DNA of 64,000 bases from an uncultured Schlesneria sp. (GTDB lineage: Bacteria > Planctomycetota > Planctomycetia > Planctomycetales > Planctomycetaceae). The stretch's first letter is position 1. The number at the start of each line of letters is the position of its first letter. The position numbers were made by a program, and so were the translations under genes. Under the pieces are notes generated by a model. The model ran no database searches and was not told the origin of the DNA. It saw nothing but the letters and a program-made list of their open reading frames with translations. This document shows, in pieces, positions 5,146 through 62,795 of this stretch. The stretch lies in NCBI GenBank assembly GCA_903840265.1, contig CAIMFH010000122.1:1-64000 (forward strand), written 5' to 3'.

Positions 5146-5164
5146 TTCCCTAGAAAGAGCAACC

Positions 5165-5536
5165 ATGAATGCCTTGATCATTGACGATTCGCGAGCCATG
5201 CGGCGCGTGCTACGGCGAATTGTCGAACCCCTCGGATTTGCCGTGACGGAAGCCGGTGACGGCCAGGAGGGTCTTAATCAACTCAGTGAGATGGACGCCG
5301 TCGATCTGATCCTTGTTGATTGGAACATGCCCGTCATGAACGGGATCGAGTTCGTTCAAGCAGTCCGCGCCGACACCAAACGGCGCGACCTGAAGCTGGT
5401 GATGGTCACCACCGAAACCGAACCGATGAAGATGGCGCGGGCCCTCATGGCCGGCGTCGATGAATTCGTCATGAAACCGTTCACCAGCGACATCCTGGTC
5501 GACAAACTGCGTCTCATCGGCGTGGGTAGCTTTTGA
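5165..5536 (+). CDS. Single-domain CheY-like response regulator
   Basis: A 123-residue stand-alone receiver domain. It shows the acidic pair D7-D8, the phospho-acceptor D52 in LVDWNMP, a Thr in MVTTET and the conserved Lys in VMKPF near the C-terminus. With no output domain it should act like CheY, carrying phosphate from CheA to the motor or to another protein. The frame is open upstream into cheR, but the ATG at 5165 begins exactly at the family consensus (MNALIIDDSRAMRR), so it is the start. It lies directly downstream of cheR and upstream of an HDOD protein. A second CheY-like gene lies at 7744-8214; which of the two drives the motor cannot be told. Confidence 0.93.
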   Translation: MNALIIDDSRAMRRVLRRIVEPLGFAVTEAGDGQEGLNQLSEMDAVDLILVDWNMPVMNGIEFVQAVRADTKRRDLKLVMVTTETEPMKMARALMAGVDEFVMKPFTSDILVDKLRLIGVGSF

Positions 5537-5646
5537 TCCGGCGAATACCGGGGCGCGACGGATCGCATTCGCATCGAGCAAAACCTCAGCAGCAGATCTC
5601 TTTGACGGCACTCCGCCCCGGTTCAATCCACAAGTAAGCGTGCACG

Positions 5647-6567: not shown

Positions 6568-6662
6568 GCATCGCAAATCAATTTGCTTCTTTAACGAACT
6601 GCTACGCACCCGAGTGACGACGCGCCCACTTAATACCCACAATTGGAATGGAAGAGACGACG

Positions 6663-7100
6663 ATGATGTACCTCGACGAAGAAACGCTGACCCAGGTGAC
6701 TTCTGATATTTGCACCACTATGCTTGGGTTGCCGATGTATCCAGTCTACGACGGCCTTGTTGAGCACACGCCATTGACTGCGCAAGTCCGCATCTCTGGC
6801 GAATGGAACGCGACAGTGGAAATCGCGACGACCCCCAAGGTGGCGACATTGATCGCCGCTCAAATGTTCTCACTCGATCCGAGCCAGATCCAAACCGCAG
6901 ATCTGTACGACGCACTCGGTGAAGTGGCTAATATGGTGGGTGGCAATGTGAAGGGAATCGTGAACGGCGAACTCGATCTGTCCCTCCCCAGTGTATCGGA
7001 ACGCGATACCCAGACAGCGGGTGCTGTAGGCGAGACCACTGTGGTGCAGATGATTTGCCTGGAAGGACCTCTGATCGTGACTTTGTCAGAATCGAACTGA
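6663..7100 (+). CDS. CheX-like CheY-P phosphatase
   Basis: A protein of about 145 residues with the CheX/CheC-type fold. The signature helix GEVANMVGGNVKG contains the E-x-x-N motif that attacks phosphorylated CheY in CheX and CheC. It probably dephosphorylates one of the two CheY-like receivers encoded nearby, ending the response. Starts are possible at 6648 and 6663; the second is preferred because a purine-rich GGAAGAG lies about 7 nt before it. It is the last gene of the plus-strand run cheR-cheY-HDOD-cheX and converges on a second CheX-like gene on the minus strand, only about 65 bp away. Confidence 0.85.
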   Translation: MMYLDEETLTQVTSDICTTMLGLPMYPVYDGLVEHTPLTAQVRISGEWNATVEIATTPKVATLIAAQMFSLDPSQIQTADLYDALGEVANMVGGNVKGIVNGELDLSLPSVSERDTQTAGAVGETTVVQMICLEGPLIVTLSESN

Positions 7101-11718: not shown

Positions 11719-11761
11719 ACAACGGTGCGCGGTCCTACTCCAGGAATGCATGAAATGGGGG

Positions 11762-11839
11762 GCCACGGTCTTGGAGTCTTCGACATGGCCGTGTCTTTGA
11801 TCGCAGACACGGCCACACCGAAGACGGTGAGACCGTGGC
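11762..11839. repeat. Palindromic intergenic repeat, GTGGCAC-type end
   Basis: A long imperfect hairpin between the adaptor and RND pump genes. Three pairs of perfect arms are nested: GCCACGGTCT (11762) with AGACCGTGGC (11830), GTCTTCG (11776) with CGAAGAC (11819), and GGCCGTGTCT (11787) with AGACACGGCC (11805). Related elements occur at 53126 and in part at 61455. It could act as an attenuator or RNA-stability structure inside the operon, or be a miniature mobile repeat. Confidence 0.8.
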
Positions 11840-11940
11840 ACCCAAACCAAACACAATCATCACTCTGACTGAACACCGGACTCAGTCCCCGTCCAAGGGG
11901 AATTGCGCGATGAAGTCGCGAAAAGAAACTGGCGTTGACC

Positions 11941-14900
11941 ATGAATGCACTTATCAAGTTCGCCCTGCACAACCGGATGCTGATCGTCTGTCTGGCCCTT
12001 GTCACACTAGTGGCGGGGTCGATGACGATGGCCTCGCTGCCGATCGACATCTTTCCATCGTTAACGCGACCGCGTGTGACGGTGATGACCGAATGCCCCG
12101 GCCTTTCCCCTGAGGAAGTGGAAACGCTGGTCACGCTACCGTTGGAGGTCGCTTTCAACGGAGCCACTGGTGTGGAAGCGGTGCGCAGTTCATCTGGCAT
12201 CGGCCTGTCTGTGATCTACGTCGAATTTGGCTGGAACACCAACATCTATGTCGCACGCCAGATCGTCAATGAACGCATCGCCATCGTACGCGATCGTTTG
12301 CCGGAGACGGTCAAGCCCGAACTCGCTCCCATCTCGTCAATCATGGGCCAGATCATGATGGTCGGCATGTACAGCAAAGACGGATCGACGCAACCAATGG
12401 ACGTTCGCACGTTAGCCGATTGGGCGGTGCGTCCGCGATTACTGACAATCCCCGGAGTTGCCCAGGTCATCACCATGGGTGGCGGACGCAAACAGTATCA
12501 GGTGAAGGTCGACGCCGCGAATCTGCAGGCCTACAACGTTACGCTGGATGAAGTCGAGCAGGCTCTGATCGAAAGCAACCAGAACGCCACAGGCGGTTAC
12601 CTCGAAAAGGGCTCGCTGGAATACCTGGTGCGCGGAATCGGTCGAGTCCAGTCGATCGGCGACCTGGAGCAAACCGTGGTCAAATCGCATGGTGAGCGTT
12701 CGGTTCTATTGCGTGATGTGGCCCGAGTTGTCGAAGGCCCGCAGGTCAAGCGAGGCGATTCGTCTGTGAATGGACATCCCTCGGTCGTGCTGACCATTGC
12801 CAAGCAGCCCACCGGAGACACGCGGTCTCTCACCGACCAGATCGAACGGGCTCTGCAGGATCTCAAGGCATCACTACCAGCCGACATCGAGATCGATTCG
12901 TCCATCTTTCAGCAGCGGAAGTTCATTGACTTGGGAATCCACAATGTGCTGGAAGCCCTGCGCGACGGAGCGATACTTGTCCTGATCATCCTGTTCCTGT
13001 TTCTGATGAACGTCCGCACGACATTCATCACTCTCACCGCCATTCCGCTATCGATCGTTATCACCGGACTCGTTTTTTACTTCGCTGGCCAGTCGATTAA
13101 TGTGATGACCCTGGGCGGGCTGGCGGTCGCCATGGGTGAGTTAGTCGATGACGCGATCGTCGATATTGAAAACGTCTTCCGCCGCCTGCATCTGAACGCG
13201 CGGCTGCCCCATCCCAAGCGTTCGCTGGATGTGATTTATCATGCCAGCATCGAAGTACGCGGGTGTATTGTCTTCGGCACGATGCTGGTGATCCTTGTGT
13301 TCCTGCCGCTGTTCGCGTTGTCCGGTGTCGAAGGCCGCTTGTTCGCTCCACTAGGCGTAGCTTACATCGTGTCGATCCTGGCATCGCTGCTAGTGTCACT
13401 GACCGTCACGCCCGTCCTCGGCAGCCTGTTGTTGGCGAAACAAATCGAACGTCAGGGAAAACTCGCCAGAGCAAATGCGGCTGGTGAAGAGACGGAAGTT
13501 CATGGAATCGGGCCACACGAGGCCGACAGCTTTCTGCTCCGAATCTTGAAGCGAGGCATCACACCCGTCATTCACTTCAGCATGAATGCAACCGGTCTGA
13601 AGTTGATCCTGTTGGTCGTGGTTGTGGCGATTGCCGGCAGTGGAGTGCTGGTCGTCAATCTCGGCACCGACTTCCTGCCGCCGTTCGATGAAGGAGCAGC
13701 ACAGGTCAACATCTTCGTGCCGCCCGGATCGTCTCTGGAGACATCGAACCGAGTCAGCGGCATGGTCGACAAGGCGTTTCGCAAACACATGGCAGCTGAC
13801 AAGAACACGGATACGATAACAGCAGGTCACGCGGCCCGACCATCGTTCCCATACAACCTATTCTCCGGTACGGAAAGCGCCAACACAAACGACAAGTCAC
13901 TGATCAAAGCCCTCGTTCGGCGCAGCGGTCGAGCGGAAATGGACGAGCACGCCGAAGGGGTCAACGTGACCGAGTACATTGTCTCGATGAATCCAGACAG
14001 CGGTGTCACGCGACAGGAGGCACTCGCGATTCTGCGCAAAGATCTCGAAGCGATCCCGGGCATTGAGTACGAAGTCGAACAGCCGCTGGCGCACCTCATC
14101 AGCCACATGTTGTCGGGCGTCTCGGCTCAGATCGCGATCAAGGTTTTCGGCGATGATCTCGACGTCCTAAGAAAGAAGGCGAACGAGATCAAAGCGGCAA
14201 TCACTGGAATACCAGGACTGGCTCCTCCGGTCGTCGAACCGCAAACACTGATTCCGCAACTGCGAATTGAACTGAATCGCGAAAAGTTAGCCTTGCACGG
14301 ACTGACCCCCGGCCATGTGAATCGCTTGGTCGAGACAGCACTGAACGGTCGCACTGTTTCGACAATCCTGGAAGGTTCACGGACCTTCGATCTGGTGGTC
14401 AGAATGGATGACGAATATCGCGCCGATGTGAGTGCCATTGAGCGGATGGTGATCGACTTGCCCGGTGGCGGTCGAGTGCCGCTGCTGGCCGTTGCTCGCA
14501 TCTACGACGGTGCTGGCCCCAACACGATCAGCCACGAAAGAACCAAACGCCGCATCACGATTCGTGGCAACACCACCGATCGCGATCTGGGCAGTGTCGT
14601 CGCCGACATTCAGGCCGCCGTCAAGCAAAAGGTCAAACTCCCTGAAGGCTACTTCATCGAATATGGCGGTCAGTTTGAAGCCCAGCAGGAAGCGACGCGA
14701 TTGATCTCGCTGCTCAGTCTGGTGTCGCTCGCCGGAGTCTTCCTCGTCCTCTTCACTCAGTTTCCATCCACCAGGATCGTCCTGCAAATCATGCTGGCCC
14801 TACCGACCGCATTTGTCGGTGGAGCGGTCGCGCTGTGGCTAACGAATCAAACTCTGACTGTTGCCGGGATGGTCGGTTTCATCTCGCTGGGAGGCATCGC

Positions 14901-15237
14901 CGCCAGAAACGGCATCTTGTTAGTCGCCCACTATTTGCACCTCATGAAAGAGGAAGGCGAAGAGTTTACCGAAGCCATGATCCTCCGCGGCAGTCTCGAA
15001 CGACTGGCACCGGTGCTGATGACTGCTCTGACTGCCGGAATTGGTCTGGTGCCGTTGGTCTTAGGCGGTCAGCAGCCCGGCAAAGAAATCCTCTACCCGG
15101 TGGCCACCGTTATTTTGGGGGGGCTGATCACGTCCACGATTTGCGAATACGTTGTTCACCCTGGGCTTTTCTGGCGGTTCAGCGGGTCGGCTGCAAAGCG
15201 CCTGGCGACCTCCTCAAATGCCGCCGATATTCAATAG
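11941..15237 (+). CDS. CusA/CzcA-family heavy-metal efflux RND permease
   Basis: A proton-driven inner-membrane pump of about 1,098 residues, the normal size for heavy-metal RND pumps. It starts MNALIKFALHNRMLIV (TM1), followed by a large periplasmic domain with the conserved segment TECPGLSPEEVETLVTLPLE, TM2-6 including GELVDDAIVDIENVFRRL in TM4, the second periplasmic half beginning near LGTDFLPPFDEGAAQVN, and TM8-12. The charged residues of TM4 (E, D, D, E) are those used for proton relay. The metal cannot be read from the sequence; the surrounding Cys/His-rich proteins suggest a thiophilic ion such as copper, silver, lead or zinc. A TTG six bases upstream is less likely than the ATG at 11941. 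No TolC-like partner is seen in the window. Confidence 0.95.
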   Translation: MNALIKFALHNRMLIVCLALVTLVAGSMTMASLPIDIFPSLTRPRVTVMTECPGLSPEEVETLVTLPLEVAFNGATGVEAVRSSSGIGLSVIYVEFGWNTNIYVARQIVNERIAIVRDRLPETVKPELAPISSIMGQIMMVGMYSKDGSTQPMDVRTLADWAVRPRLLTIPGVAQVITMGGGRKQYQVKVDAANLQAYNVTLDEVEQALIESNQNATGGYLEKGSLEYLVRGIGRVQSIGDLEQTVVKSHGERSVLLRDVARVVEGPQVKRGDSSVNGHPSVVLTIAKQPTGDTRSLTDQIERALQDLKASLPADIEIDSSIFQQRKFIDLGIHNVLEALRDGAILVLIILFLFLMNVRTTFITLTAIPLSIVITGLVFYFAGQSINVMTLGGLAVAMGELVDDAIVDIENVFRRLHLNARLPHPKRSLDVIYHASIEVRGCIVFGTMLVILVFLPLFALSGVEGRLFAPLGVAYIVSILASLLVSLTVTPVLGSLLLAKQIERQGKLARANAAGEETEVHGIGPHEADSFLLRILKRGITPVIHFSMNATGLKLILLVVVVAIAGSGVLVVNLGTDFLPPFDEGAAQVNIFVPPGSSLETSNRVSGMVDKAFRKHMAADKNTDTITAGHAARPSFPYNLFSGTESANTNDKSLIKALVRRSGRAEMDEHAEGVNVTEYIVSMNPDSGVTRQEALAILRKDLEAIPGIEYEVEQPLAHLISHMLSGVSAQIAIKVFGDDLDVLRKKANEIKAAITGIPGLAPPVVEPQTLIPQLRIELNREKLALHGLTPGHVNRLVETALNGRTVSTILEGSRTFDLVVRMDDEYRADVSAIERMVIDLPGGGRVPLLAVARIYDGAGPNTISHERTKRRITIRGNTTDRDLGSVVADIQAAVKQKVKLPEGYFIEYGGQFEAQQEATRLISLLSLVSLAGVFLVLFTQFPSTRIVLQIMLALPTAFVGGAVALWLTNQTLTVAGMVGFISLGGIAARNGILLVAHYLHLMKEEGEEFTEAMILRGSLERLAPVLMTALTAGIGLVPLVLGGQQPGKEILYPVATVILGGLITSTICEYVVHPGLFWRFSGSAAKRLATSSNAADIQ

Positions 15238-15288
15238 ACGATGGTTTGGATGAGCCAACCCCGCAGCTGATTTTCGAAAGGATTCGTC

Positions 15289-16107
15289 ATGTCACGTCAC
15301 CTTGTATTTGCCACGTGTTTGCTTGCCACCAACGCCCTGAATGTGGTTCAGGCACAGCAAGTGACTACGGTCAGGCCAGCGTCGCCCAGCCAGGCAGAAG
15401 CCACGCTGGAAAAGGCCGCCGCAGACGGAAAATACACATTTCTCGTGTTTTACAAGTCAAATGATGCCGCAACGCAGGCCGTGGGGGCCACATTGAAAGA
15501 AGGGCTGGCGAAGCGAAGTGATTTGGCAGTCGGAGCCTACGTCCAAGTCGGTCAACCGGCCGACCAGGCGTTAGTCGACAAATACGACGTCAGCAGAGCC
15601 CCCATGCCGATGACAATTGCCGTCGCCCCTAACGGAGCAATGACGGGGCTGTTTGCGCAGAAATTGACGCCTGAGCTCATCGAGAATGCGTTTGTCACCC
15701 CCACGATGATGCGCTCCATGAAATCGCTTCAGGAAGGGAAGTTGGTTTTCGTTTGCGTGCAAGGATCGGCCAAAGCTGCCGCACCGGCATCGCTCAAAGA
15801 TTTTCAGGCCGATCCCCATTTCAAAGATCGACTGGTCGCCTATTCGATGGTGGCTGCAGACACTGCCGAAGGAAAGTTCCTGACACAGATGCAGATCGAT
15901 CCGACAAAGGCCAAGGGAACGACGACCGTGTTGCTGGCACCGCCCGGTGTGCTGGTCGGGAAGTTCGACGAATTCGCCTCGAAGGACGATATTGCTGCCG
16001 CCCTCGCCAAAGCGGGCAAGTGCTGTGACGACCCCAACTGCAAGCATCATCAACATGCACAACCGGCACCGCGAGCAACTTCAGCACCGCGTGCTGCACG
16101 ACGATAA
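15289..16107 (+). CDS. Secreted protein with thioredoxin-fold-like halves and a CC/HH C-terminus
   Basis: A 272-residue exported protein (signal peptide about 1-22, ending VQAQQ). Two similar halves each show a thioredoxin-like pattern (AAADGKYTFLVFYKSNDAAT; QEGKLVFVCVQGSAKAAAP) but lack a CxxC redox centre. Near the C-terminus is a metal-binding-like cluster, GKCCDDPNCKHHQH, followed by an Ala/Pro/Arg tail. A good AAGGA ribosome-binding site precedes the ATG. It lies between the RND pump and the FtsX-like permease, so it is probably a periplasmic partner of one of these exporters. The fold assignment is by sequence pattern only. Confidence 0.7.
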   Translation: MSRHLVFATCLLATNALNVVQAQQVTTVRPASPSQAEATLEKAAADGKYTFLVFYKSNDAATQAVGATLKEGLAKRSDLAVGAYVQVGQPADQALVDKYDVSRAPMPMTIAVAPNGAMTGLFAQKLTPELIENAFVTPTMMRSMKSLQEGKLVFVCVQGSAKAAAPASLKDFQADPHFKDRLVAYSMVAADTAEGKFLTQMQIDPTKAKGTTTVLLAPPGVLVGKFDEFASKDDIAAALAKAGKCCDDPNCKHHQHAQPAPRATSAPRAARR

Positions 16108-16170
16108 GCCGCAGGAAGGTAGAGATCGCGGCGACGGAATGGCATCAGTCAAAGTACTTCAAGGAAGAGC

Positions 16171-17391
16171 ATGAATCTCAGAACCCTCGTCTGGCGAGAG
16201 TTGAGCGAGCGGCCGTCGGCCATGCTCACCAGCACGCTGGCAATTCTATTAGGTGTGACTGCCCTCGTCGCGATTCGTCACGTCACCGTTTTCTCGGAAC
16301 GAGAAGTCGGGCAGCAACTCCAGTCGCTCGGCGCGAATGTTCTGGTATTGCCGAAGGCCGCGACGCTGCAGGACTACTACTCGGCAGACCTCACGTCGCA
16401 GACGCTTCCCGAGTCGCACGTGTCGAGCATCCTGCTGGCAAATCTGCCAGGCGTAGAACGCTTGTCACCCAAGCTCTGCGTCGCAGCCAAGGTCGGCGAC
16501 CGCGCCGTCACGCTGACAGGCATCCTGCCCCAAAGTGAGTTTCAAGCCAAAGCGGTGTGGCAGTCAGTCTCGCTATTCAGCAACAAGCACGACGGCTGCA
16601 AGAAGGCGGCTTGCGGCCCCAAGACTTACGATGGTGCCCCCGAAGCTCTTGCCACTGAACGGACAATCGACCAGTTGAAGGGGAACGAGGCCATCATCGG
16701 TGCTGATGTGGCCGAATTCTCAAAGCTAAAACCCGGCAAGTCGGTGGAAGTACTCGGCGAATCGCTGCAGGTGCTGGCCGTGCTGCCTCGAACCGGGACA
16801 GTTGATGATGGGCGAGTTTTCGCGCACTTGCATACCGTGCAGCGGATGACGAACGCCGGTGAAGTCGTCAACGCGATCGAAGTGATGGGTTGCTGCGAGG
16901 ACGCGGCCGGTGGCTTGGTCCCCAGCCTGACAGCGCTGCTGCCAGACGCGAAAGTGGTGACGATCTCGCAAGTCGTCTCGACCCAAGTCGGAATCAACCG
17001 GCTAATGAGTCAGATGTCGCTGTTCGTGCTGAGCATCCTGGTCATTGTGGGCGGGGCCAGCGTCGCCAGCACAATCTCGTCGAATGTGCGCGAACGACGC
17101 CGTGAAGTCGGCACGCTGATGGCGTTGGGTGCCACACCGGGACTGGTCACTCGCATGTTCCTGTTCAAGGCACTGGCATTGGGCCTCGTCGGTGGAATCG
17201 GGGGATGTGCGCTGGGGCTAGTTGTGGCGATGCTGCTCGGTTCGCAATGGGCCGGAGTGACTGTCACTCCCCTTCCCGACCTGCTGCTGATCGCGATTGC
17301 CGCGGCGCTGGCAGTCACGACATTAGCGGCCTACTGGCCCGCTCGATCAGCGGCGAGGTTGGATCCCTGCAGTTGCTTCTCGGATGTCTGA
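16171..17391 (+). CDS. FtsX/MacB-like ABC transporter permease with Cys-rich external domain
   Basis: A 406-residue permease. TM1 lies near residue 20 (AMLTSTLAILLGVTALVAI), followed by a large external domain (about 40-285) and three C-terminal helices (SLFVLSILVIVGGASVAS; ALALGLVGGIGGCALGLV; LLLIAIAAALAVTTLAAYW), the classic FtsX/MacB layout. The motif RERRREVGTLMALGATP after TM2 is the ATPase-coupling loop. Unusual are the Cys pairs in the external domain: DGCKKAACGPK and EVMGCCEDAAGG. They could bind metal or form disulfides. The ATP-binding subunit follows 76 bp downstream. It may export a lipoprotein, peptide or metal-related substrate for the preceding efflux genes. Confidence 0.9.
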   Translation: MNLRTLVWRELSERPSAMLTSTLAILLGVTALVAIRHVTVFSEREVGQQLQSLGANVLVLPKAATLQDYYSADLTSQTLPESHVSSILLANLPGVERLSPKLCVAAKVGDRAVTLTGILPQSEFQAKAVWQSVSLFSNKHDGCKKAACGPKTYDGAPEALATERTIDQLKGNEAIIGADVAEFSKLKPGKSVEVLGESLQVLAVLPRTGTVDDGRVFAHLHTVQRMTNAGEVVNAIEVMGCCEDAAGGLVPSLTALLPDAKVVTISQVVSTQVGINRLMSQMSLFVLSILVIVGGASVASTISSNVRERRREVGTLMALGATPGLVTRMFLFKALALGLVGGIGGCALGLVVAMLLGSQWAGVTVTPLPDLLLIAIAAALAVTTLAAYWPARSAARLDPCSCFSDV

Positions 17392-17467
17392 TTTCAAACT
17401 TCGCTTGAGAAAGCCTCGTCGTTGCGTGATTCAAATCTTCAGCAACAACGCCAGGAGTCGGTGACTT

Positions 17468-18154
17468 ATGTTTCATCTGCAAGGTATTACCAAGATCTAT
17501 CGGAAGCGAAGTCAGGAAGTCATCGCGTTTCGAACGGATCTGCTCGACATCGCGAAGGGCGAATATGTCGCCGTCGTTGGACCGAGCGGCAGCGGCAAGA
17601 CAACGTTGCTATCGCTCCTAGGCGGTATGTTGTCACCCGATTCGGGACAGGTGATGTTTGACGGTCAGTCTCTTTACGATCTGCCGTTGAATACTCGGAC
17701 TAAGCTGCGGCGCGATCGGATCGGTTTCGTGTTCCAGACATTCAATTTGGTCCCCTACTTGAGCGCCCTGGAGAATGTGCAGATCCCGCTCTATCTCGCA
17801 GGAATCGCACCCGCCGAACAGCGAGATCGAGCGGTCGCGCTGCTCGAACAGGTCGGACTCGCAAACCGACTGGATCATAAACCATGTGAATTGAGCACGG
17901 GCCAGCAACAGCGAGTCGCCCTGGCGAGAACGCTGGCGAACAATCCGCTGTTGATTCTGGCAGACGAACCAACGGGCAACCTCGACCCGGAAAGTCGCGA
18001 AGCAATTCTCTCGATGTTCGATGGATTCATCCGCGACGGCCGTACAATCGTGATGGTGACTCACGACCCCGCGGCCGCTGCGCGTGCTTCGCGGCGGTTG
18101 CGATTGATTGATGGATCGCTTGACGCCTCCGATTCCATCTCGGATGCCGCATAG
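17468..18154 (+). CDS. ABC transporter ATP-binding protein (LolD/MacB type)
   Basis: A 228-residue nucleotide-binding subunit. It shows Walker A GPSGSGKTT, the Q-loop region GFVFQTFNLVPYLSALENV, the signature LSTGQQQRVALAR, Walker B LILADEPTGNLD and the switch His in VMVTHD. The sequence after the Q-loop is typical of the LolD/MacB/FtsE group, which pair with four-helix FtsX-like permeases such as the one just upstream. An AGGAG ribosome-binding site precedes the ATG. It is the last gene of the efflux run and converges on the minus-strand lipoprotein gene. Confidence 0.95.
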   Translation: MFHLQGITKIYRKRSQEVIAFRTDLLDIAKGEYVAVVGPSGSGKTTLLSLLGGMLSPDSGQVMFDGQSLYDLPLNTRTKLRRDRIGFVFQTFNLVPYLSALENVQIPLYLAGIAPAEQRDRAVALLEQVGLANRLDHKPCELSTGQQQRVALARTLANNPLLILADEPTGNLDPESREAILSMFDGFIRDGRTIVMVTHDPAAAARASRRLRLIDGSLDASDSISDAA

Positions 18155-50059: not shown

Positions 50060-51316
50060 CTATTGGGCCTTCACGTCATAGCAGTACAGTAGATCCTGAT
50101 CGCGCAGGTACAACTTGCCGTTGCTGACAACAGGGTGAGTCCAGATGCGGCCGCGGGGATTGCGGCGTGATGTCTGGGGTGCCATCTTGAAGCGGCTGTG
50201 CTCGTTCCACCCGTTAGGCGATGCCTCGACCAGTGCGACTTCGCCGTTCCCTTCGTCGATGCAGTACAGCATCCCGTCGGCACACGTGACGCAGCCCTTG
50301 CCGAGTGCGCCGCGTTCATTCCATTTCACTTCGCCTGTCTTGAAGTTCAGGCACATCCACCCCACACCGTCTGAGTGGCCATACACGTAGTCACCCAAGA
50401 GCAGCACTCCACCGTGATGGTTCTTCATGTTCTTATTGAAGTAGACTTCGTGAGACTTGTTGTCTTTGTCGATTTCGATCAAGGAGCAACCAACGCCATA
50501 ACCTGATGTCACAAAGATGTTGTTGTCTTTGACAATCGGGGTTGGAATGACAGCGGTCTTCCCTGGCCAGTCCGCTGTCCACAGAACCTTTCCATCCTCA
50601 GGTGATACTGCCGCGAGGATCTCAGTGAATAGCTGAACGTACTGGGCCTGTCCGTTGATCTTCGCAGGAATGATTGACGCGTATTGAGCTCCCGCCGTGA
50701 GATCTGTCGAACGCCACAGCACTTTGCCATCGTCTTTGTTGAAGGCAACAATCGCCCCCTGGTCGCCACCGGGTGTGCAGACGACTCGAGGGCCATCGAC
50801 CAGCACCGACTCGCAATAGCCCCAGTTTGGTGCTTTGCCTCCGAGGTCCCCCATGGACGCCGTCCACAGTTGTTTGCCATCTTCTGTCTGCGCGCAGATC
50901 AAGTCGCCGGTCCCACCCATGGCATACACACATGCGCCATCAACTGTGGGAGTTCCACGAGGTCCGTTACCCCAGCCATTGCCCAGAGTCGGTCCGACTT
51001 TCGTCTTCCACTTCTGTTCGCCGGTGTTCGCGTCCAGACAGATCAGGTATTCGCTATCTTGATCGTCATCGTTAATCGCCCCCATCGTGAAGAGCTTGCC
51101 ATCGACGATCGAGAAGCCGGAATAACCCAAGCCCACGTTCTCATTGAGCCAGACTCGTTTGGGACCGTCCGCCGGCCACGTCTTGAGCAAACCTATCTCT
51201 TGCGAGACATCACTATGATCGGGACCACGCCATTGAGGCCAGTCACCGGCAGAGGCGCCGCCTACGGCAGCCGCGAGGGCACAAACAATCAGCGACAGTC
51301 GTCGGTTCATCATCAC
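50060..51316 (-). CDS. Secreted PQQ-type beta-propeller protein
   Basis: A 418-residue exported protein (signal peptide ending GGASA, then GDWPQWRGPDHSDVS). Blades show the repeating pattern of the quinoprotein/BamB propeller: YLICLDANTGEQKWKTKVG, DLICAQTEDGKQLWTASMG, AIVAFNKDDGKVLWRSTDL and AAVSPEDGKVLWTADWPG. Catalytic residues and a cofactor site of true PQQ dehydrogenases are not evident, so it is more likely a binding or scaffold propeller. Planctomycetes carry dozens of such proteins. Monocistronic, its start divergent from the AcpH-like gene. Confidence 0.92.
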   Translation of the reverse strand: MMMNRRLSLIVCALAAAVGGASAGDWPQWRGPDHSDVSQEIGLLKTWPADGPKRVWLNENVGLGYSGFSIVDGKLFTMGAINDDDQDSEYLICLDANTGEQKWKTKVGPTLGNGWGNGPRGTPTVDGACVYAMGGTGDLICAQTEDGKQLWTASMGDLGGKAPNWGYCESVLVDGPRVVCTPGGDQGAIVAFNKDDGKVLWRSTDLTAGAQYASIIPAKINGQAQYVQLFTEILAAVSPEDGKVLWTADWPGKTAVIPTPIVKDNNIFVTSGYGVGCSLIEIDKDNKSHEVYFNKNMKNHHGGVLLLGDYVYGHSDGVGWMCLNFKTGEVKWNERGALGKGCVTCADGMLYCIDEGNGEVALVEASPNGWNEHSRFKMAPQTSRRNPRGRIWTHPVVSNGKLYLRDQDLLYCYDVKAQ

Positions 51317-53414: not shown

Positions 53415-53419
53415 CTTAA

Positions 53420-53446
53420 GAAAACCCCTCATTGTGAGGGGTTTTC
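53420..53446 (+). terminator. Rho-independent terminator after the tRNA
   Basis: Immediately downstream of the tRNA, a perfect 12-bp stem with a 3-nt loop (TTG): AAAACCCCTCA pairs with TGAGGGGTTTT. A T-run is part of the 3' arm, so it terminates the tRNA transcript. Confidence 0.9.
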
Positions 53447-53523
53447 TCCGTTCTTTGGCCAAGCGTAACAAGCTTTGGGATGCCACGGTTTTTGACGGCC
53501 TACCTTAACGAGGCGTCGGCGAG

Positions 53524-55620
53524 TCAGAGTGAACCGTTCGACTTGTTAAGGTCCAGGCGGCAAATCGATCGGCCCAGACGAAGATAAAGAGCCCCGTTGG
53601 CCAACGCGGGATGTGACCAGCAATCGGATCCGTCTTCCGACAATTGCAGGCGGGATAAGATAACAGGCTCGGCCTGGTGAGGATCAATTAGGATTAGTTC
53701 TTCCTTGAAGGTAAGTGCCAACAGGCGTTCGGTGCTTGCGATTAGGGAGCCATATTTACGAAAGGCCCGGTCCTTCAGTCGCCAGACACTCTTGAGGTCA
53801 TCTCCCAGCGACAGGCTATGCAAGCCATTATCAATCCCAAGCAACCGGTCACCGGACACGACGGGTGAGTGTGAATCGGGAGACAAGGCCTTGTTTGCGA
53901 CGGCAACTTCAAACCCCGGTTTACCGTCGTGACGCGGCGTATAGACGCGAGCACCATTGTTCTCGCTAACGAGCACGAAGCCTGAGCGGTAAATGATGGG
54001 AGAAGGCACGTTAAAATCGCCGGCTTCGGGTGGAACGACGGACCATTTTCGCTCACCCGTGGCGATGTCCCACCCGCCGAGTGAAGACTTGTCGTAGCCG
54101 ACCAATTGAATCTCGCCATTCACGGCGGATGTCAAGAATGACGCATGGCCCGGTGCGAGGCCCGTCGCTGACCAGAGCACGTCACCAGTCGCGGGACTCA
54201 GAGCCACGAGCGACGCCACGTTGCCACCCGGTTGGACGATCAGTCGGCCCGCTGCCAGTAAGGGGGAGCCAGACAAACCCCAGGTGAGGAGTGGCATTTG
54301 AAACCGAGTCGCCAAATTCAGATTCCATTCGACATGGCCATCGCTCAACCTGACACAATGCAGATGTCCGAATGCTCCGAGTAGCCAGGCATGCTCACCA
54401 TCGATCAGCGGCGTGGCGCGAGGAGAATTTCCATAGTCGAGGCGACCGGGGGCGGGGTAGGCGAGTGACCATCGCGACGCGCCGGTATCCGCATCCAGGC
54501 ACGTCCACAGATCCTTCTGGTCTAAAGCGTCGCGTCCCCCCGCAATGACACAGCCTTTAGCGACCGCAATGCCACCCACTCCTTCGCTGGGAAGCGTGAC
54601 CTTCCAGTCAAACTCGGCCCGTTCTGGAAGCTTTGCAGGAAGCCACTGGACTGTGCCGTCTCGAAAGGGGCCGCGAAATTGCGGCCACTCACTTTCTTGT
54701 CTATCCAGATTGTGTGAAAGGTCATTGCCGCCACTGCGCAGAGACGACTGAGTCTTGTTTTTCTCGGCGTCGGACCTTTCATTTTTTGCATCACGGGCAA
54801 ATGGCAAGAAGCCTTTTTCGGTTTCGAGACCAATCAGGAGCTTGGCTTCGTTACCGACTTTGAGGAGCGCTTCGGTGATAGCCCCGCGAACGTCTTTATC
54901 CAGCCTGGCATCGACGAACGCCGTAATAAACGGCACGGGCTCCGATTCCCCAATGACTCGCACATCACCTTTTTTGATCGAACCGCAGCCTTCCAGAAGC
55001 GGTTGCGCATAGCTGGAAACGACGGCGGCGGCTTTTTCAGACTCCGGCAACGCCAGCAAGGCCTTCGCGGCGTCACTGCATGACGGCGACGTCTCTACGG
55101 GGCTTGGAAGCGGGAGCCCCGCTTTCTTTAATAGCTTCATCGGCGAGGCAGATTTCTCGTCGCAATCGGCCGGGCCGAACAGCACGCGATATCCTTTGAG
55201 GTCCGCCATCGATTTAGCAGGGTCGAGCTTGCGAACAATAAACAGGCCGGTCTGTGTCACTTCGCCGTCCCGACCGGTCAGTTGAGCGACAGGTTGCACG
55301 GTGATCTTCGCTTCTTTCGCGTCTGCCAGGACGACGGAATGCTTCCCGATGATCAGATCGGCTTTGCCTTTCGTTTTTTCTTCGAGCACCCCCTTCAGTG
55401 ATTCCGACCAGTAAACTTTGACCGGCCTTTTGAGCTCGCTCGTTAGGAACTCACCCAGCAATTCGTACTTTCGCTGGGCATACCCCTTCACGCAATCACA
55501 GGCCAACGGTGCCGACAGCGGGTCCATGATGACCACTGTCAGCGTCGTGGGTGCCTCGTCGGCAGCGAGCGCAGACGCCCCCACTGCCATTGCCAACATG
55601 AAACAAAACCAGTTCTTCAT
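53524..55620 (-). CDS. Fusion of a PhnD-like solute-binding domain and a PQQ-type propeller
   Basis: A 698-residue exported protein (signal peptide MKNWFCFMLAMAVGASALAA). Residues about 22-260 resemble PhnD-type (phosphate/phosphonate/phosphite) periplasmic binding proteins: YELLGEFLTSELKRPVKVYW, DLIIGKHSVVLADAK, MADLKGYRVLFGPADCDEKS and AAVVSSYAQPLLEG. Residues about 305-690 form a quinoprotein-like beta-propeller: WPQFRGPFRDGTVQWLP, then WTCLDADTGASRWSL, HCVRLSDGHVEWNLNLA and ALSPATGDVLWSATG. An Asp/Lys/Ser-rich linker joins them. Four Cys lie in the binding domain (LACDCV; ADCDEK). Such a fusion is uncommon to my knowledge. It is the second gene of a pair with the Cys-rich propeller gene, 65 bp downstream of that gene's stop. 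Confidence 0.82.
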   Translation of the reverse strand: MKNWFCFMLAMAVGASALAADEAPTTLTVVIMDPLSAPLACDCVKGYAQRKYELLGEFLTSELKRPVKVYWSESLKGVLEEKTKGKADLIIGKHSVVLADAKEAKITVQPVAQLTGRDGEVTQTGLFIVRKLDPAKSMADLKGYRVLFGPADCDEKSASPMKLLKKAGLPLPSPVETSPSCSDAAKALLALPESEKAAAVVSSYAQPLLEGCGSIKKGDVRVIGESEPVPFITAFVDARLDKDVRGAITEALLKVGNEAKLLIGLETEKGFLPFARDAKNERSDAEKNKTQSSLRSGGNDLSHNLDRQESEWPQFRGPFRDGTVQWLPAKLPERAEFDWKVTLPSEGVGGIAVAKGCVIAGGRDALDQKDLWTCLDADTGASRWSLAYPAPGRLDYGNSPRATPLIDGEHAWLLGAFGHLHCVRLSDGHVEWNLNLATRFQMPLLTWGLSGSPLLAAGRLIVQPGGNVASLVALSPATGDVLWSATGLAPGHASFLTSAVNGEIQLVGYDKSSLGGWDIATGERKWSVVPPEAGDFNVPSPIIYRSGFVLVSENNGARVYTPRHDGKPGFEVAVANKALSPDSHSPVVSGDRLLGIDNGLHSLSLGDDLKSVWRLKDRAFRKYGSLIASTERLLALTFKEELILIDPHQAEPVILSRLQLSEDGSDCWSHPALANGALYLRLGRSICRLDLNKSNGSL

Positions 55621-55685
55621 CGAGCCTCCGGTAGGATTCGCAGGGTAGCGCCTGTGGTCGGGATGGTATTGGTGAAGCCTCGCAA

Positions 55686-57518
55686 TCAGTTCGACTTCGC
55701 GTCGCCCACAGGCTTCGCGGTGGCATCGATCGTTTCAGTAGGCTTCGCATCGCGCTGATAGGCACTGGTAGCCATCACGCTGTCGTCACTGCGCAGCTCG
55801 ATCTTCACTGTGTCGTCGGTGTTAAACGTCACTTTGAAATTGAAGTTTTCGACGCCATCCATCACGACACCCACGGTCAAATGATTGTCCGCCTGCTTCG
55901 TGGCGACCCACTCCAGCGAGGTCTCACGCGAATAGATGGACAACATTCCGCCGGTGGCCTTCAACTCCCCATTCTCACCGAAGGTCAGTTGATCTGCCAC
56001 TCCTTCCGTGGCCCCGCCCGCGCCAAACACAGAGCGCACGACTCCAGTGATACCGGATTTGGCTTTTTTGGCCCCCTGCATCGACCATGTGCCGACGAGC
56101 TTCGCTCCGAGCCCTTCGCGAGCGGCTTTAGCGAGCAATTCATCTTCGGTGGGTCCGGTGATTTCAGCGACGGGGACCAGCACGCAGATGTGGCCCTTGT
56201 CCTGATGCTGCATGTAATATCGATTGCGGGCGGCATCGAATTCCAGAGCGACGTGTTTACAGCCCCCTGCGATCTTTGCTCGACCAATGTAGCCGACCAT
56301 CTTGCCTTCGGGAGAAAATCGCTTGATGTCTCCGATACTCGATTCGGCCGTGAGAATTGTTCCGTCCGCACAACAGCGAACATTCATCGGGTTGCAGCAA
56401 CTGCCAAACCCTTCGGGGCTCTTGCGATCACGTTTGCCAAAGCTCTTAGTCATTTCCCCATCGCGATCATAGATCCCGACCTGGAACTTGCCGTTTTCAG
56501 CGACGAGCAGATTATCTTTCGAGGCCTGGATGTCCATCTGGCCACAGCAGCCACCGAGGTCTTCGACGATTTTCTCGCCGTCGGTAAAGTCGTGCGTCGT
56601 CCGCCAGACGTCATAGCCGTGTCCGTTCAGTTTCTTCAGCGACATAAACACGTCCTTTTCGGTCGCGGCCACTGCCGTCACCGTCAGTTTGTCATTCACG
56701 GCCGCTTCGGGGTCGCCCACTCCCAGCGACGCTTCAACTTGTACTAGCTGTTCTTTGTATTGCTTGATCAGCGTCTCCTGGGCTTCGATCTGGGCCTTGA
56801 TCGCTTTGGTGCGGTCTGCCTCAGGCTTCTCCAGCAGCTTCGCGAGCTTCTTTTCGGCCTGCTTGATTTGTGTGTCAAACTGGCTGGTGAATTGCTGGGC
56901 TTGAGCCTTGGCTTCTTTGAGCGCCTTCGCCTTGAATTCTTCTAAGTTGCCCACATTGGGCGTCCGGCTTTTCTTGATGAGTTCACCGTCAAGTGTCAGG
57001 CGAGCCAACCAGCCTTCGCCAGCGACTACGAATTCTTTACTGCCGGGAACCATGTTGATGGCGGTCGGCTTAAAGTCCAGCTCGATTTCCTTCAGCAGCT
57101 TTTCGTCAGGGGAGTAGATCTGGACGAGTGCGTCTTGCTTGATGTGCTTGATGTCGTACTCGCCCGGTTGGTCTGGTTTGAGAGCGTATTCGACGGAAGG
57201 GCCGCCAACGCAGAGCAGCAGGTCGCCAGTGGGGGTCAGGCAAAAGGTGTTGAGGCCAATCTTTTTGCCATTGTGTTGAGGAGTAATGACCCGCGCCTGC
57301 TTGTGCGTGCTATCGGATCGTGAACCGGCAACGGCTGGATGACCATCCTTGCAGTTCTCAGTCGCTGCCTTCACACCGATATCGATCGTCTGTCCTGCGG
57401 TAGCCTGTACCTTTGCAGGTTCAAGTTTTGCCGGAACTTCCTTTTTCACGTCATCTGCCCACAGGGGCATCGCAACGAGACTCATCAGCCAGATCGCAAG
57501 GGTGTCGCGAAGTCGCAT
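55686..57518 (-). CDS. Secreted coiled-coil/beta-propeller protein with Cys pairs
   Basis: A protein of about 610 residues; the start at 57518 gives a clear signal peptide (LRDTLAIWLMSLVAMPLWA), the frame being open to 57743. The order is a propeller-like part with LTPTGDLLLCVGGPSVEYAL, a coiled coil (QFTSQFDTQIKQAEKKLAKL and following), an NHL-like propeller in which blades carry paired cysteines (DLGGCCGQMDI; FGSCCNPMNVRCCADGTIL; IAGGCKHVALEF), and a C-terminal beta domain (LEWVATKQADNHLTVGVVMD). The Cys pairs suggest disulfides or metal/heme binding. Upstream partner of the PhnD-PQQ fusion and probably functionally linked. Confidence 0.8.
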   Translation of the reverse strand: MRLRDTLAIWLMSLVAMPLWADDVKKEVPAKLEPAKVQATAGQTIDIGVKAATENCKDGHPAVAGSRSDSTHKQARVITPQHNGKKIGLNTFCLTPTGDLLLCVGGPSVEYALKPDQPGEYDIKHIKQDALVQIYSPDEKLLKEIELDFKPTAINMVPGSKEFVVAGEGWLARLTLDGELIKKSRTPNVGNLEEFKAKALKEAKAQAQQFTSQFDTQIKQAEKKLAKLLEKPEADRTKAIKAQIEAQETLIKQYKEQLVQVEASLGVGDPEAAVNDKLTVTAVAATEKDVFMSLKKLNGHGYDVWRTTHDFTDGEKIVEDLGGCCGQMDIQASKDNLLVAENGKFQVGIYDRDGEMTKSFGKRDRKSPEGFGSCCNPMNVRCCADGTILTAESSIGDIKRFSPEGKMVGYIGRAKIAGGCKHVALEFDAARNRYYMQHQDKGHICVLVPVAEITGPTEDELLAKAAREGLGAKLVGTWSMQGAKKAKSGITGVVRSVFGAGGATEGVADQLTFGENGELKATGGMLSIYSRETSLEWVATKQADNHLTVGVVMDGVENFNFKVTFNTDDTVKIELRSDDSVMATSAYQRDAKPTETIDATAKPVGDAKSN

Positions 57519-58154
57519 GATTCTGCTTTTCTGATAGTGACAGGATTCGTTGGAAATGAACGTCGAAGGGAAGCGACGTTGTCCTCGCTGATCCGTCGCG
57601 AGGCGGTGTTCATATTCTGTCGATGACCACCAGAAAGCAACTTTCCGGTTCGGGTTTTGCAGATTGCGAATCAAGTTGATCTTGACATCTAGCAAAGTCA
57701 TTCTGTCTCGTTCCGGAGGGCATGCAACGATGGCTCCTTCCAAGCATCACACAGTAAGCCATCATTTCAATTGCGAACCGCATTCTCGTTCTCGCGTGAA
57801 TGCTGGCAGCTTAGGAAGTCTCGCAGCGGTCGCCGCACCTGTGAGGCATTTCTTGAGGGCGACGCCAATCGTCCCGCGATTCTGCCAAGAATGATATGAC
57901 CGTGTTGCTTTGGCCTTTGCTCGGCTTTAGAGGCACATGGTCACAACTCCATGAGAGATGCCGTTCGTATTGGCTAGCCGCTTCTTGACTTGCCAATTAC
58001 ACAACACTGTGTAATAGTGGAGTGTTGAATGGGGTTGGGAATGGCACAGCGCGGTAGTCGAGACGACCCTTTCTGAAACACGTTATCGACATACGAGTTT
58101 CTGGCCTGATCGAACAAGCATGGTGCCTGATGGACAAGGCGCATGAATTGAGAT
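57519..58154. promoter_or_regulatory. Divergent intergenic region upstream of the arsenic-type operon
   Basis: The region is about 640 bp. The only clear structure is the palindrome at 57996-58015. No ArsR-like or other regulator gene could be recognised in any frame. It should also hold the promoter of the Cys-rich propeller gene. Confidence 0.45.
57996..58015. promoter_or_regulatory. Operator-like palindrome ATTACACA-ACAC-TGTGTAAT
   Basis: A perfect 8-bp inverted repeat with a 4-nt spacer, 140 bp before the aquaporin gene. It is AT-richer than the surroundings and has the size expected for a dimeric winged-helix repressor such as ArsR. Confidence 0.55.
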
Positions 58155-58865
58155 ATGGAAACAATGCGACTTCATCAAGCAGGCAGAGTTTTCAGAAGAA
58201 AGCTTTTCGCCGAAGCAGTCGGGACTTTCTTTCTCGTCTTTGCGGGAACGGGAGCGATCGTCATCAACGATCTAAGTCATGGGGCCGTCTCCCATGTGGG
58301 TATCTCTCTGACGTTCGGCCTGGTGGTCCTGTCGATGATTTATTCTCTGGGCTCGGTTTCCGGGTGTCATCTTAACCCTGCTGTGACGCTGGGCTTTTTC
58401 CTTGCCAGGCGATTCCCAGGCCGCGAGGTCGCAGGCTATGCCGCAAGTCAATGTTTGGGTGCAGTCCTCGCGAGCATCGTATTGCGATTGATGTTTCCTG
58501 AGCATCCCACATTGGGAGCAACGGTTCCGGCAGGCACTGACATCCAGTCATTTATTCTTGAATTCATTCTCACCCTGATGTTGATGTTTGTCGTGTTGAG
58601 CGTCGCGACCGGGGCGAAAGAAGAAAGCCAGCTCGCCGGCGTCGCCATCGGTTCGATGATTGCATTGGAAGCACTATTTGCGGGGCCGATTAGCGGAGCG
58701 TCCATGAACCCGGCCCGATCGCTTGCACCAGCATTTGTGACCGGGCAGCTACTGCCAATCTGGATCTACATTGCCGCTCCCCTGTTGGGTGCCATCACCG
58801 CCGTTGGCTTGTACGGGTCCCTGCATACAGACCAGCCACGGGATCTCAAACTGGATGAAAGCTAA
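58155..58865 (+). CDS. MIP-family aquaporin / arsenite channel
   Basis: A 236-residue channel with six helices and the two half-helix signatures, HLNPAVTLGFF and SMNPARSLAPAF. By sequence it belongs to the AqpZ/GlpF superfamily. It overlaps the next gene, an arsenate reductase, by one base (TAATG), so both are translated together. In Sinorhizobium an aquaporin, AqpS, works with ArsC by letting the arsenite produced leave the cell; the same arrangement is inferred here. The start may be the first ATG (58155) or the ATG nine bases on. Confidence 0.93.
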   Translation: METMRLHQAGRVFRRKLFAEAVGTFFLVFAGTGAIVINDLSHGAVSHVGISLTFGLVVLSMIYSLGSVSGCHLNPAVTLGFFLARRFPGREVAGYAASQCLGAVLASIVLRLMFPEHPTLGATVPAGTDIQSFILEFILTLMLMFVVLSVATGAKEESQLAGVAIGSMIALEALFAGPISGASMNPARSLAPAFVTGQLLPIWIYIAAPLLGAITAVGLYGSLHTDQPRDLKLDES

Positions 58866-59254
58866 TGAAACGACTGTTATTCGTGTGCATAGAAAATTCG
58901 AACCGCAGCCAGATGGCACAGGCGTTCGCCCGAATCCACGGAGGCGATTCCATCGAGGCCTTCAGTGCCGGTTCACGTCCGTCAGGACGCATTAATCCCA
59001 AGGCTGTTGCTGCCATGGGGGAACTGGGTTACGACCTCTCTTCACACACCTCAAAAGGACTCGAAGAATTTAACGGGCAGCAAATGGATGTGGCTGTCAC
59101 GATGGGTTGCGGCGATGCCTGTCCACTGGTGAAAGCGGTTCAACGGGTTGACTGGAGCATTCCTGATCCACGCGACATGACGCCCGAAGAATTCCGCGGC
59201 GTGCGGGATCTCATCGAGACGAAAGTCAAATTGTTGATTGCTAGCGTTTCGTGA
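58865..59254 (+). CDS. arsC: Arsenate reductase, low-molecular-weight phosphatase type
   Basis: A 129-residue thioredoxin-coupled ArsC-type protein. The P-loop is VCIENSNRSQMA with the nucleophile Cys at residue 8. A second Cys pair lies in VTMGCGDACP, the position of the redox Cys used in ArsC, and the general acid Asp in DWSIPDPRDMTP. It should reduce arsenate to arsenite. It overlaps the aquaporin gene by one base. No ArsR, ArsB or ACR3 gene is in the window. Confidence 0.9.
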   Translation: MKRLLFVCIENSNRSQMAQAFARIHGGDSIEAFSAGSRPSGRINPKAVAAMGELGYDLSSHTSKGLEEFNGQQMDVAVTMGCGDACPLVKAVQRVDWSIPDPRDMTPEEFRGVRDLIETKVKLLIASVS

Positions 59255-61454: not shown

Positions 61455-61493
61455 GTGCCACGGATTTGGAGTTGTTGCCAAAGCCGTGTCTCT
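61455..61493. repeat. Partial GTGCCACGG/CCGTGTC repeat
   Basis: GGTGCCACGG at 61454 and GCCGTGTCTC near 61483 match the two left-half segments of the element at 11762 in the same order and about the same distance. It appears to be a half copy, without the right half. Confidence 0.45.
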
Positions 61494-61544
61494 TTTCGAT
61501 CTCCTGGATATAGTGGGGCTTCGGTGCCTCCTGAAGGATCCAGA

Positions 61545-62795
61545 ATGCTTCGATCAACACTATTGACCGTTTCAGTTGCGTTGGTTGCGATCAATGCCGC
61601 GTCGGCCGGTGATTGGCCCCAGTGGCTGGGGCCGGCGCGTAACGGCTCATCAACCGAAAAAGTGGAAGCTTGGACGGATCCTCCAGCGGTTGTCTGGCGG
61701 CAATCCATCGGTTCCGGCTACAGCTCTCCCGTCGTCGCCGGCGGGCGAGCGTTTGTTCACGCCCGAGCCGGGCAGCTTCAGGAAGAAGAAGTCGTGGCCT
61801 TCGACGCCGTGACCGGTAAAGAGCTGTGGCGCGACAAGTCTCCTCGCGCCACTTACAACAGTGTTCTTGGTGGTGGGCCTGCCGCGACCCCGACGGTTGC
61901 CTGGAACAAGATCTTTTCGTATGGTATCTCGGGGTTGCTCAGTTGCCATGACGTGGAGACTGGCAAGCGCTTGTGGCAGCGCGATGTCTACCGCGAGCTG
62001 AATGTCTCGATTCCACGGTACGGCGTCTGTTGCTCACCCCTGGTGATCGGCAGCCATGTGCTGGTCAGCGTCGGAGGCAAAGATTCGGCGATCGTCGCCG
62101 TGGATGCTCAAACAGGCGAAGTTGCCTGGAAGGCCTTCGACGAACCCGCCACAACAGCCTCGCCCATTCTGTACCGGGCACCTGGACAGGACGCCACAGA
62201 GCAAACCGCCCTGTTTGTGACCAGCTTGCGACTACTGGCCATCGACCCGCTGGATGGTCACATCGGTTGGGAAGCACCACAAATCTTCAAGCCGTCCGGC
62301 CCAGCTCCAACGCCCCTCGCCATCGGTGACATTGTCATCACCTCCAACTCGAATGATGGGACTGCGGCAACGCGCATCACTCAATCAACCGAGGGAGTGC
62401 GATCCGAGCAGCTCTGGACCAAGAAGGAGATTGGTGGCTACTTTTCCAGTGGCGTGAGGTGTGGCGATGACAAAGTCTGCCTCGTCACTAACGTCTTGCA
62501 GCCTATCCCATCCGCCTCGCTGCGTTGCTTGGATATACGCACCGGTGAAGAACAGTGGACCGTGTCGGGGGCTGGATATTTTCACGCGGGTGTGATTCAA
62601 GTCGCCGACAACCGACTGCTGGTGCTCGACGACGGCGGCACGCTGAAGCTGTACGAAGCCGGTGATAAGAAGTGTACACAACTCGCGAAAGCGCCCGTCT
62701 GCGGGGGTACTTTGGTGACGCCTGCCTTCGCGAATGGCCTGCTCTATGCACGCGATGGAGCAGAACTGATTTGCGTTCGATTGGAAACTCCATGA
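61545..62795 (+). CDS. Secreted PQQ-type beta-propeller protein
   Basis: A protein of about 416 residues. The ATG at 61545 with AAGGA upstream gives a signal peptide (LLTVSVALVAINAASA) followed by GDWPQWLGPARNGSS, the usual opening of planctomycete propellers. Blades contain VVAFDAVTGKELWRDKSP, LSCHDVETGKRLWQRDVY, IVAVDAQTGEVAWKAFDE and LRCLDIRTGEEQWTVSG. No dehydrogenase cofactor residues are evident. The stop overlaps the start of the following MFS gene (ATGA), so the two are translationally coupled. Confidence 0.92.
   Translation: MLRSTLLTVSVALVAINAASAGDWPQWLGPARNGSSTEKVEAWTDPPAVVWRQSIGSGYSSPVVAGGRAFVHARAGQLQEEEVVAFDAVTGKELWRDKSPRATYNSVLGGGPAATPTVAWNKIFSYGISGLLSCHDVETGKRLWQRDVYRELNVSIPRYGVCCSPLVIGSHVLVSVGGKDSAIVAVDAQTGEVAWKAFDEPATTASPILYRAPGQDATEQTALFVTSLRLLAIDPLDGHIGWEAPQIFKPSGPAPTPLAIGDIVITSNSNDGTAATRITQSTEGVRSEQLWTKKEIGGYFSSGVRCGDDKVCLVTNVLQPIPSASLRCLDIRTGEEQWTVSGAGYFHAGVIQVADNRLLVLDDGGTLKLYEAGDKKCTQLAKAPVCGGTLVTPAFANGLLYARDGAELICVRLETP

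Follow-up and report, generated by a model that had tools for sequence, protein, structure and literature searches.

Two neighbouring genes of an uncultured Schlesneria sp. (Planctomycetota) appear, with a probability of about 0.42, to encode an extracytoplasmic two-protein complex with cysteine-based redox or soft-metal chemistry, which would have arisen from a repurposed binding protein and would not act as an importer. The genes are located in a stretch of 64,000 nucleotides (positions 1 to 64,000 of the forward strand of contig CAIMFH010000122.1, assembly GCA_903840265.1), here referred to as the window, and they specify an NHL-type propeller protein and a fusion of a PhnD-type substrate-binding domain with a BamB/PQQ-like propeller. 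This reading is based on the conservation of the gene pair, its gene order, the loss of old ligand contacts in the PhnD-type domain, and the presence of extra cysteines in NHL proteins that have a PhnD partner; together these suggest the type of ligand and the chemistry that are proposed below.

The NHL-type gene (55686..57518, minus strand; a 610-residue frame with its ATG at 57518) is located upstream of the fusion gene (53524..55620, minus strand; an open reading frame of 698 residues), separated from it by 65 bases (55621..55685, minus strand), and the two presumably form a single co-transcribed two-gene unit. Sec-type signal peptides were recognized by eye on both products. In the fusion protein, an exported PhnD-type binding domain (approximately residues 25-275) is followed by a linker with low model confidence (residues 277-308) and a BamB/PQQ-like propeller (approximately residues 310-692). 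Pfam family PF12974 matched residues 49-265 (E 5.4e-24, 85.3 bits versus a cut-off of 27) and PF13360 (PQQ_2) matched from residue 373 onwards (E 2.4e-19, above cut-off), while the structure model (predicted local distance difference test score, pLDDT, 81.2; predicted template modelling score, pTM, 0.56) resembled PtxB and BamB, and Foldseek placed the binding domain on PtxB at a template modelling (TM) score to the target of 0.67-0.70. The NHL partner gave nothing above the Pfam cut-offs and no Pfam NHL match even at E 1; its fold was assigned through its model (pLDDT 77.5, pTM 0.71), which Foldseek aligned to the NHL domains of Thin and TRIM2 (probability 1.00, TM to target 0.73-0.74 for the first four rows). 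The protein contains a helical hairpin insert (residues 192-265, with helices 192-229 and 238-265 in the model), the conserved cysteines C324-C325, C374-C375 and C420, and a C-terminal beta-rich domain.

Within the genome (7.49 Mb), PF12974 matched the fusion alone, and a search with the NHL protein gave no further match at E 0.001. Since each protein is encoded by a single copy and the two are nevertheless neighbours, in an order that recurs in 36 of the 41 loci described below, window included, their adjacency exceeds chance expectation. No ABC gene was present among the eight window neighbours that were scanned together with the pair using Pfam and family models, in agreement with the original prediction, made from the sequence of this stretch, that no ABC permease adjoins the binding domain. 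That prediction had also given correct coordinates and strands, as an open reading frame check revealed, and its proposal of a PhnD-like domain fused to a propeller was confirmed by the two Pfam matches above cut-off. Its cysteine-paired propeller partner was recovered as well, the pairs 324-325 and 374-375 being situated in successive blades according to the strand list of the model.

The 41 loci, second copies included, were collected as sequences similar to the fusion or to the PhnD domain in it, and none was selected by its NHL protein. Loci in which only the PQQ half matched (L029, L032-L043, and also L058, L062 and L063) were dropped, as was L049, whose genome is that of L009; the 41 rows include three pairs with more than 90% identity (L012/L013, L053/L057 and L008/L011). 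A search of the whole-fusion type matched 119 of 392 genomes, mostly through the PQQ half alone. With the PhnD-domain profile, the family was detected in 18 of 392 sampled Planctomycetota genomes, the window's genome counted, and in 10 of the 337 genomes of a Verrucomicrobiota sample, the centre of that sample counted; a plasmid search gave no match. The gene pair that had been predicted proved to be conserved, as an NHL gene is encoded on the same strand within 3 kb upstream in 36 of the 41 loci. The BamB-like part is encoded in the same frame in 17 loci, by the next gene in 15, and is absent in 9; three loci (L012, L013 and L130) have neither an NHL nor a PQQ part. The scan of named genomes yielded 12 relatives, 10 of which have the propeller half and, in all 10, a same-strand NHL gene upstream, the remaining 2 being PhnD copies without either; these 12 were retrieved with whole-fusion patterns, and the share with a PQQ part is therefore biased upward among them. 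In two loci the NHL gene is duplicated in tandem (L008:5984-9808 and L011:5920-9744), and in L046 a single frame contains two copies of the CC-bearing region.

The original prediction had named lack of the fusion in relatives, as expected from misassembly, and lack of conservation of the neighbours as outcomes that would speak against it; the fused form in 17 loci and the upstream NHL gene in 36 show the opposite. Misassembly or chance fusion is practically ruled out by the occurrence of the single-frame fusion across two phyla, including one relative that is 71% identical. Moreover, placing the fused state on the tree requires 8 changes, at least 6 of which are forced by well-supported branches. 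This alternation of fused and separate genes, a point absent from the original prediction, is what would be expected for parts that work together.

The binding pocket of the PhnD-type domain has been altered at positions that are fixed throughout the family. The Ser-Thr-Ser string of the oxyanion loop was found in none of the 41 rows, and in a MAFFT alignment with Escherichia coli PhnD, S127 is replaced by Glu, T128 by Lys, H157 by Cys, N175 by Ser and E177 by Tyr, each in 41 of 41, whereas the place of Tyr93 is taken by Gln, Leu or Phe and that of Asp205 by Ile, Val or Thr. Part of the E. coli residue numbers were derived via a fixed offset of 26. The same alignment places a CxC motif inside an insertion of 8 residues in the first strand-helix loop. 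Both its cysteines, C41 and C43 (55489..55500, minus strand, including the following codon), and C181 (55078..55080, minus strand), which is at, or at most two residues from, the place of His157, are present in 41 of 41. Every row listed contains a fourth cysteine, which occupies a single column in 36 of them and is displaced by two columns in 6. As a candidate invariant cysteine, C153 was rejected, since it is constant in a set of 13 rows yet occurs in only 21 of 41 overall. The pocket positions that were compared are those named in the corresponding comparison in the AioX paper (PMC5908839). From these sequences the loss of the old oxyanion loop is firmly indicated, and the contacts are not kept as a set either in the MAFFT alignment or in a profile alignment to PtxB. 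This apparent change of the binding pocket is a point that the original prediction did not contain.

The cysteines of the NHL partner follow the presence of the PhnD protein. In the 38 PhnD-linked NHL proteins (36 loci, two of them with tandem genes), C325, C374, C375 and C420 are present in 38 of 38 and C324 in 37. Ten sister NHL proteins, encoded at loci without a PhnD match, were taken from 10 of the 12 places where the ferredoxin described below occurs outside the cassette (G452:C51 and G414:C13 were left out); all ten have C374-C375, and C93, C324, C325 and C420 were found in none. Thus C324, C325 and C420, present in the PhnD-linked proteins and absent in the sisters, go with the PhnD partner. 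According to the strand list of the model, CC 324-325, CC 374-375 and C420 are located in equivalent loops between blades, preceding the first strands of three successive blades, and the model suggests that they probably share one face near the pore.

The PhnD tree, rooted at the midpoint, consists of two clades with support 100/100. Clade I comprises 35 loci including the window, and clade II comprises 6 loci, one from a planctomycete and five from the Verrucomicrobiota sample. In all six clade-II loci the gene order is NHL, PhnD, a ferredoxin with several CxxC motifs, and a NapH/MauN-like membrane protein. The NapH-like match in L086 spans just 43 residues at the contig end, where the outermost frames presumably represent leftover sequencing adaptor. 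The NapH-like protein of L142 scored 68.5 bits with TIGR02163 (cut-off 213), and the other clade-II proteins match that of L142 by tblastn. The five clade-II ferredoxins examined contain a stretch that we take to be a twin-arginine motif. In the stretches examined around the 35 clade-I loci, no ferredoxin or NapH-like gene lies beside the pair; in L129 a weak match of 72 residues was found approximately 5 kb away on the opposite strand. The original prediction had suggested that the two proteins may form an exported redox complex, and this is supported as a possibility, strengthened by the presence of ferredoxin and NapH-like genes in the sister clade.

A related arrangement was observed in L155-L164, from both Planctomycetota and Verrucomicrobiota, in which a BamB-like propeller, an NHL protein with one CCNP pair, the ferredoxin, the NapH-like protein and a second BamB-like propeller are encoded together, in some cases with a NuoEF-like protein (L162:11709-14054). 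No description of this sister module was found in a search of the open-access literature. NHL proteins with CC are thus repeatedly encountered alongside BamB-like propellers and NapGH-like parts. With regard to the quinol dehydrogenase NapG/NapH, the sister clade shares the 4Fe-4S ferredoxin and the NapH/MauN-like membrane protein, but the L142 protein scores below the family cut-off and the genes adjoin NHL-PhnD, and these genes were not found beside the pair of the window's clade.

For the propeller half, the PQQ dehydrogenase model TIGR03075 gave 14.5 bits versus a cut-off of 480, and the BamB equivalog 36.2 versus 285.2. A structure search limited to residues 310-692, which hardly includes the binding domain, returned as best matches Rv3035 (Z 33.8), Rv3035 in complex with FecB (Z 33.3) and also YxaL; BamB structures aligned at Z of approximately 28-30, and the PQQ enzyme 4mh1 was among the matches as well (Z 29.3). 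The label of quinoprotein in the original prediction is therefore not upheld by the family score or by the best structures, although 4mh1 is listed. A PQQ enzyme was set aside on the family score, and on present scores the propeller half would not be one. It resembles BamB and PQQ-like propellers in its PF13360 match and in its alignment with BamB structures, and differs from them in its low BamB score and in being linked to a binding protein, either by fusion or as the product of the neighbouring gene.

As regards architecture, the closest known parallel is FecB with Rv3035. FecB is a mycobacterial orphan binding protein that has no ABC transporter and is associated with the propeller Rv3035 (PMC12802301), itself the top structural match of the fusion's propeller. 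As far as the accessible part of that report goes, FecB is similar to iron-type binding proteins and not to PhnD, the third partner, AftB, is an arabinosyltransferase, and neither an NHL partner nor conserved cysteines were found in the description (PMC12802301). Use of the PhnD-type fold outside transport is known from the arsenic-oxyanion sensors AioX, ArxX and ArrX; AioX contains Ser161, Ser163, His192 and the pocket cysteine Cys106 (PMC5908839). The proteins studied here share with these the fold and a pocket cysteine, and differ in the absence of Ser-Thr-Ser and in the place of Cys106, which in the MAFFT alignment is Gly in 35, Cys in 2, Ser in 2, Thr in 1 and Ala in 1 of 41, the window having Gly. 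Moreover, no sensor kinase and response regulator as in the XSR gene set was seen among the eight window neighbours scanned. In the sensor kinases of the TtrS/ThsS type, a PhnD-like periplasmic sensing domain has likely been reused for another ligand (PMC5408782); there it is fused to a histidine kinase, whereas here the PhnD-type domain is fused to a propeller.

In the proposed mechanism, the core would be a PhnD-type clamshell in which the oxyanion pocket has been exchanged for a fixed cysteine-containing pocket, composed of the CxC in the loop insertion, the cysteine that coincides with or adjoins the position of the ligand histidine, and Glu-Lys near the Ser-Thr place. The NHL propeller, paired with the clamshell, would expose CC, CC and C, contributed by successive blades, on a single face, and the cysteines of both partners may act jointly as a thiolate centre. 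Such a centre could bind a thiophilic ligand, i.e., a soft metal ion or an arsenite-like or sulfane-sulfur species, and may participate in the transfer of electrons or thiols. The complex of the sister clade would receive electrons from the quinol pool via the NapH-like membrane protein and the ferredoxin, and in that of the window's clade the BamB-like propeller, whether fused or encoded by the next gene, might serve as a docking scaffold, as Rv3035 does for FecB. Tentatively, and with the odds somewhat against it, these proteins may constitute a new family of extracytoplasmic thiolate redox complexes in Planctomycetota and Verrucomicrobiota, in which a nutrient-binding clamshell has been converted into a redox or metal centre built on cysteines and shuts against the cysteine-bearing face of a propeller; one branch would be quinol-fed via a NapGH-like pair, and in the other a BamB-like docking propeller would have taken the place of that pair. 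No paper on the cassette was found in the open-access literature, while subscription papers or descriptions under other names may exist.

Genes in the vicinity give some hints with respect to the ligand. In L136 and L142 the clade-II cassette is followed by ArsR, DsrE2-like and two HdrA-like genes (Pfam, NCBIfam), and further along by a CoA-disulfide reductase, rhodanese, TusA, DsrE fusion; in L142 the fusion and this row of genes occupy 4265-6727 and 11521-17783, both minus strand. A similar row of ArsR, DsrE and HdrA was recognized by eye in L141, 2.6 kb on, beyond two other genes. These rows hint at sulfane sulfur. The PhnD genes of L012 and L013 follow a COG0523 (CobW-type) GTPase gene, which in L012 is preceded by an ArsR/SmtB regulator above cut-off and in L013 by the contig end; L139 (11894-14283) represents a longer form of L012, in which the genes for the ArsR/SmtB regulator, the COG0523 GTPase and the PhnD-type protein follow one another. 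The COG0523 family is tied to metal delivery, and its presence with ArsR/SmtB before PhnD copies is a hint of metal. In the window's own genome, the relative of this GTPase (L065:6432-8877) adjoins a gene of the radical SAM type, as judged by eye, and not PhnD.

In the window, a MIP channel gene followed by an ArsC-like gene (low-molecular-weight phosphatase family) is located at 58155-59254 on the plus strand, divergent from the pair, and resembles an aqpS-arsC pair. No open reading frame of at least 100 residues directly precedes the MIP gene, and an operator-like inverted repeat (TTACACA-N4-TGTGTAA) lies upstream of it at 57997-58014. The idea of an arsenic island was rejected, as neither the MIP nor the ArsC-like gene was found in the stretches examined around the remaining 40 loci, nor is Cys106 of AioX shared; arsenic was kept solely within the soft-metal alternative below. 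Two more BamB/PQQ-like propeller genes lie near the cassette (50060-51316, minus strand, and 61455-62795, plus strand), approximately 25-27% identical to the propeller half of the fusion. A terminator-like hairpin of 13 pairs is found at 53419..53447 (not assigned to a strand; reported as plus by the scan), approximately 76 bases beyond the end of the fusion gene; it has the longest stem listed among the 7 sites of the scan, for which shuffled sequences gave a mean of 6.1. The flanks of 27 clade-I loci were tallied over 137 of 144 proteins, seven large ones being left out. Among the best 25 of 124 Pfam families, sulfatase (8), phosphodiesterase-type (4), MFS (3) and EF-hand (3) proteins were encountered, ABC_tran occurred in 2 of the 137, and no family was common to many loci as a conserved third neighbour.

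Three other explanations deserve consideration. Binding of a soft metal (Cu, Zn or similar) or of arsenite for delivery or sensing without redox chemistry, in which the clamshell cysteines capture the ion, which is then transferred to the cysteine-bearing face of the propeller, is unlikely but credible. AioX, with its PhnD-type fold, binds arsenite through a cysteine (PMC5908839), two of the three loci that lack both NHL and PQQ parts follow the COG0523 GTPase gene, and the window has its divergent MIP and ArsC-like genes; however, in the stretches examined COG0523 is near only 2 of the 41 loci and MIP-ArsC near 1, the place of Cys106 is seldom Cys, and it would be left unexplained why the sister clade has ferredoxin and NapH-like genes. 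A structural scaffold, with the orphan binding protein as an adaptor for the BamB-like propeller as in FecB-Rv3035-AftB and the cysteines as stabilizing disulfides, is judged unlikely. The structural matches to Rv3035 agree with it, as does the repeated change between fused and separate forms, which is expected of touching partners, and FecB and its propeller function without an ABC transporter (PMC12802301). Nevertheless, at several pocket positions all 41 rows agree on one new residue instead of having drifted, which suggests a ligand. Moreover, adjacent CC pairs seldom form structural disulfides. An ordinary phosphonate or phosphate binding protein that lost its transporter genes is very improbable: PF12974 is matched above cut-off and Ser68 is often kept, but Ser-Thr-Ser is gone, the five pocket positions of the E. 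coli alignment have all changed, the scores reach 50 bits versus 112 for TIGR01098 and 40 versus 261 for the PhnD equivalog, and no transporter gene was seen among the eight neighbours. The importer relic was therefore set aside on family scores and pocket residues. The PhnD-domain profile of the family, used with HMMER, did not match E. coli PhnD, identity being low.

Several observations weigh against the cysteine-based redox or soft-metal complex. Five of the 41 PhnD loci (L012, L013, L050, L128 and L130) lack the NHL gene. In the MAFFT alignment, 34 of the 41 rows retain Ser68 of E. coli PhnD and 35 retain Gly65. In the profile alignment to PtxB, both the loop and C181 are shifted by two residues from where the E. 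coli alignment has them, so it is uncertain which residue replaces which contact, and whether Cys stands in for His differs with the choice of alignment. Neighbours of the sulfur, arsenic and COG0523 kinds were each encountered at one or two loci only. Finally, a search of the window's genome for the clade-II ferredoxin was negative at E 1e-10, and for the window's clade the link to redox chemistry is thus drawn by analogy.

PhnD-fold binding proteins are easily annotated as parts of importers on the basis of sequence alone, and in the subfamily described here the old oxyanion loop appears to be lost and several new pocket residues have become fixed. Across the pair, nine cysteines are nearly invariant, four in the PhnD-type domain and five in the NHL protein, and NHL proteins with and without a PhnD partner provide a natural comparison, as they differ at C324, C325, C420 and mostly C93. 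If confirmed, the cysteine-based complex would represent a new use of the PhnD fold and, in two phyla, an additional extracytoplasmic system for redox reactions or metals.

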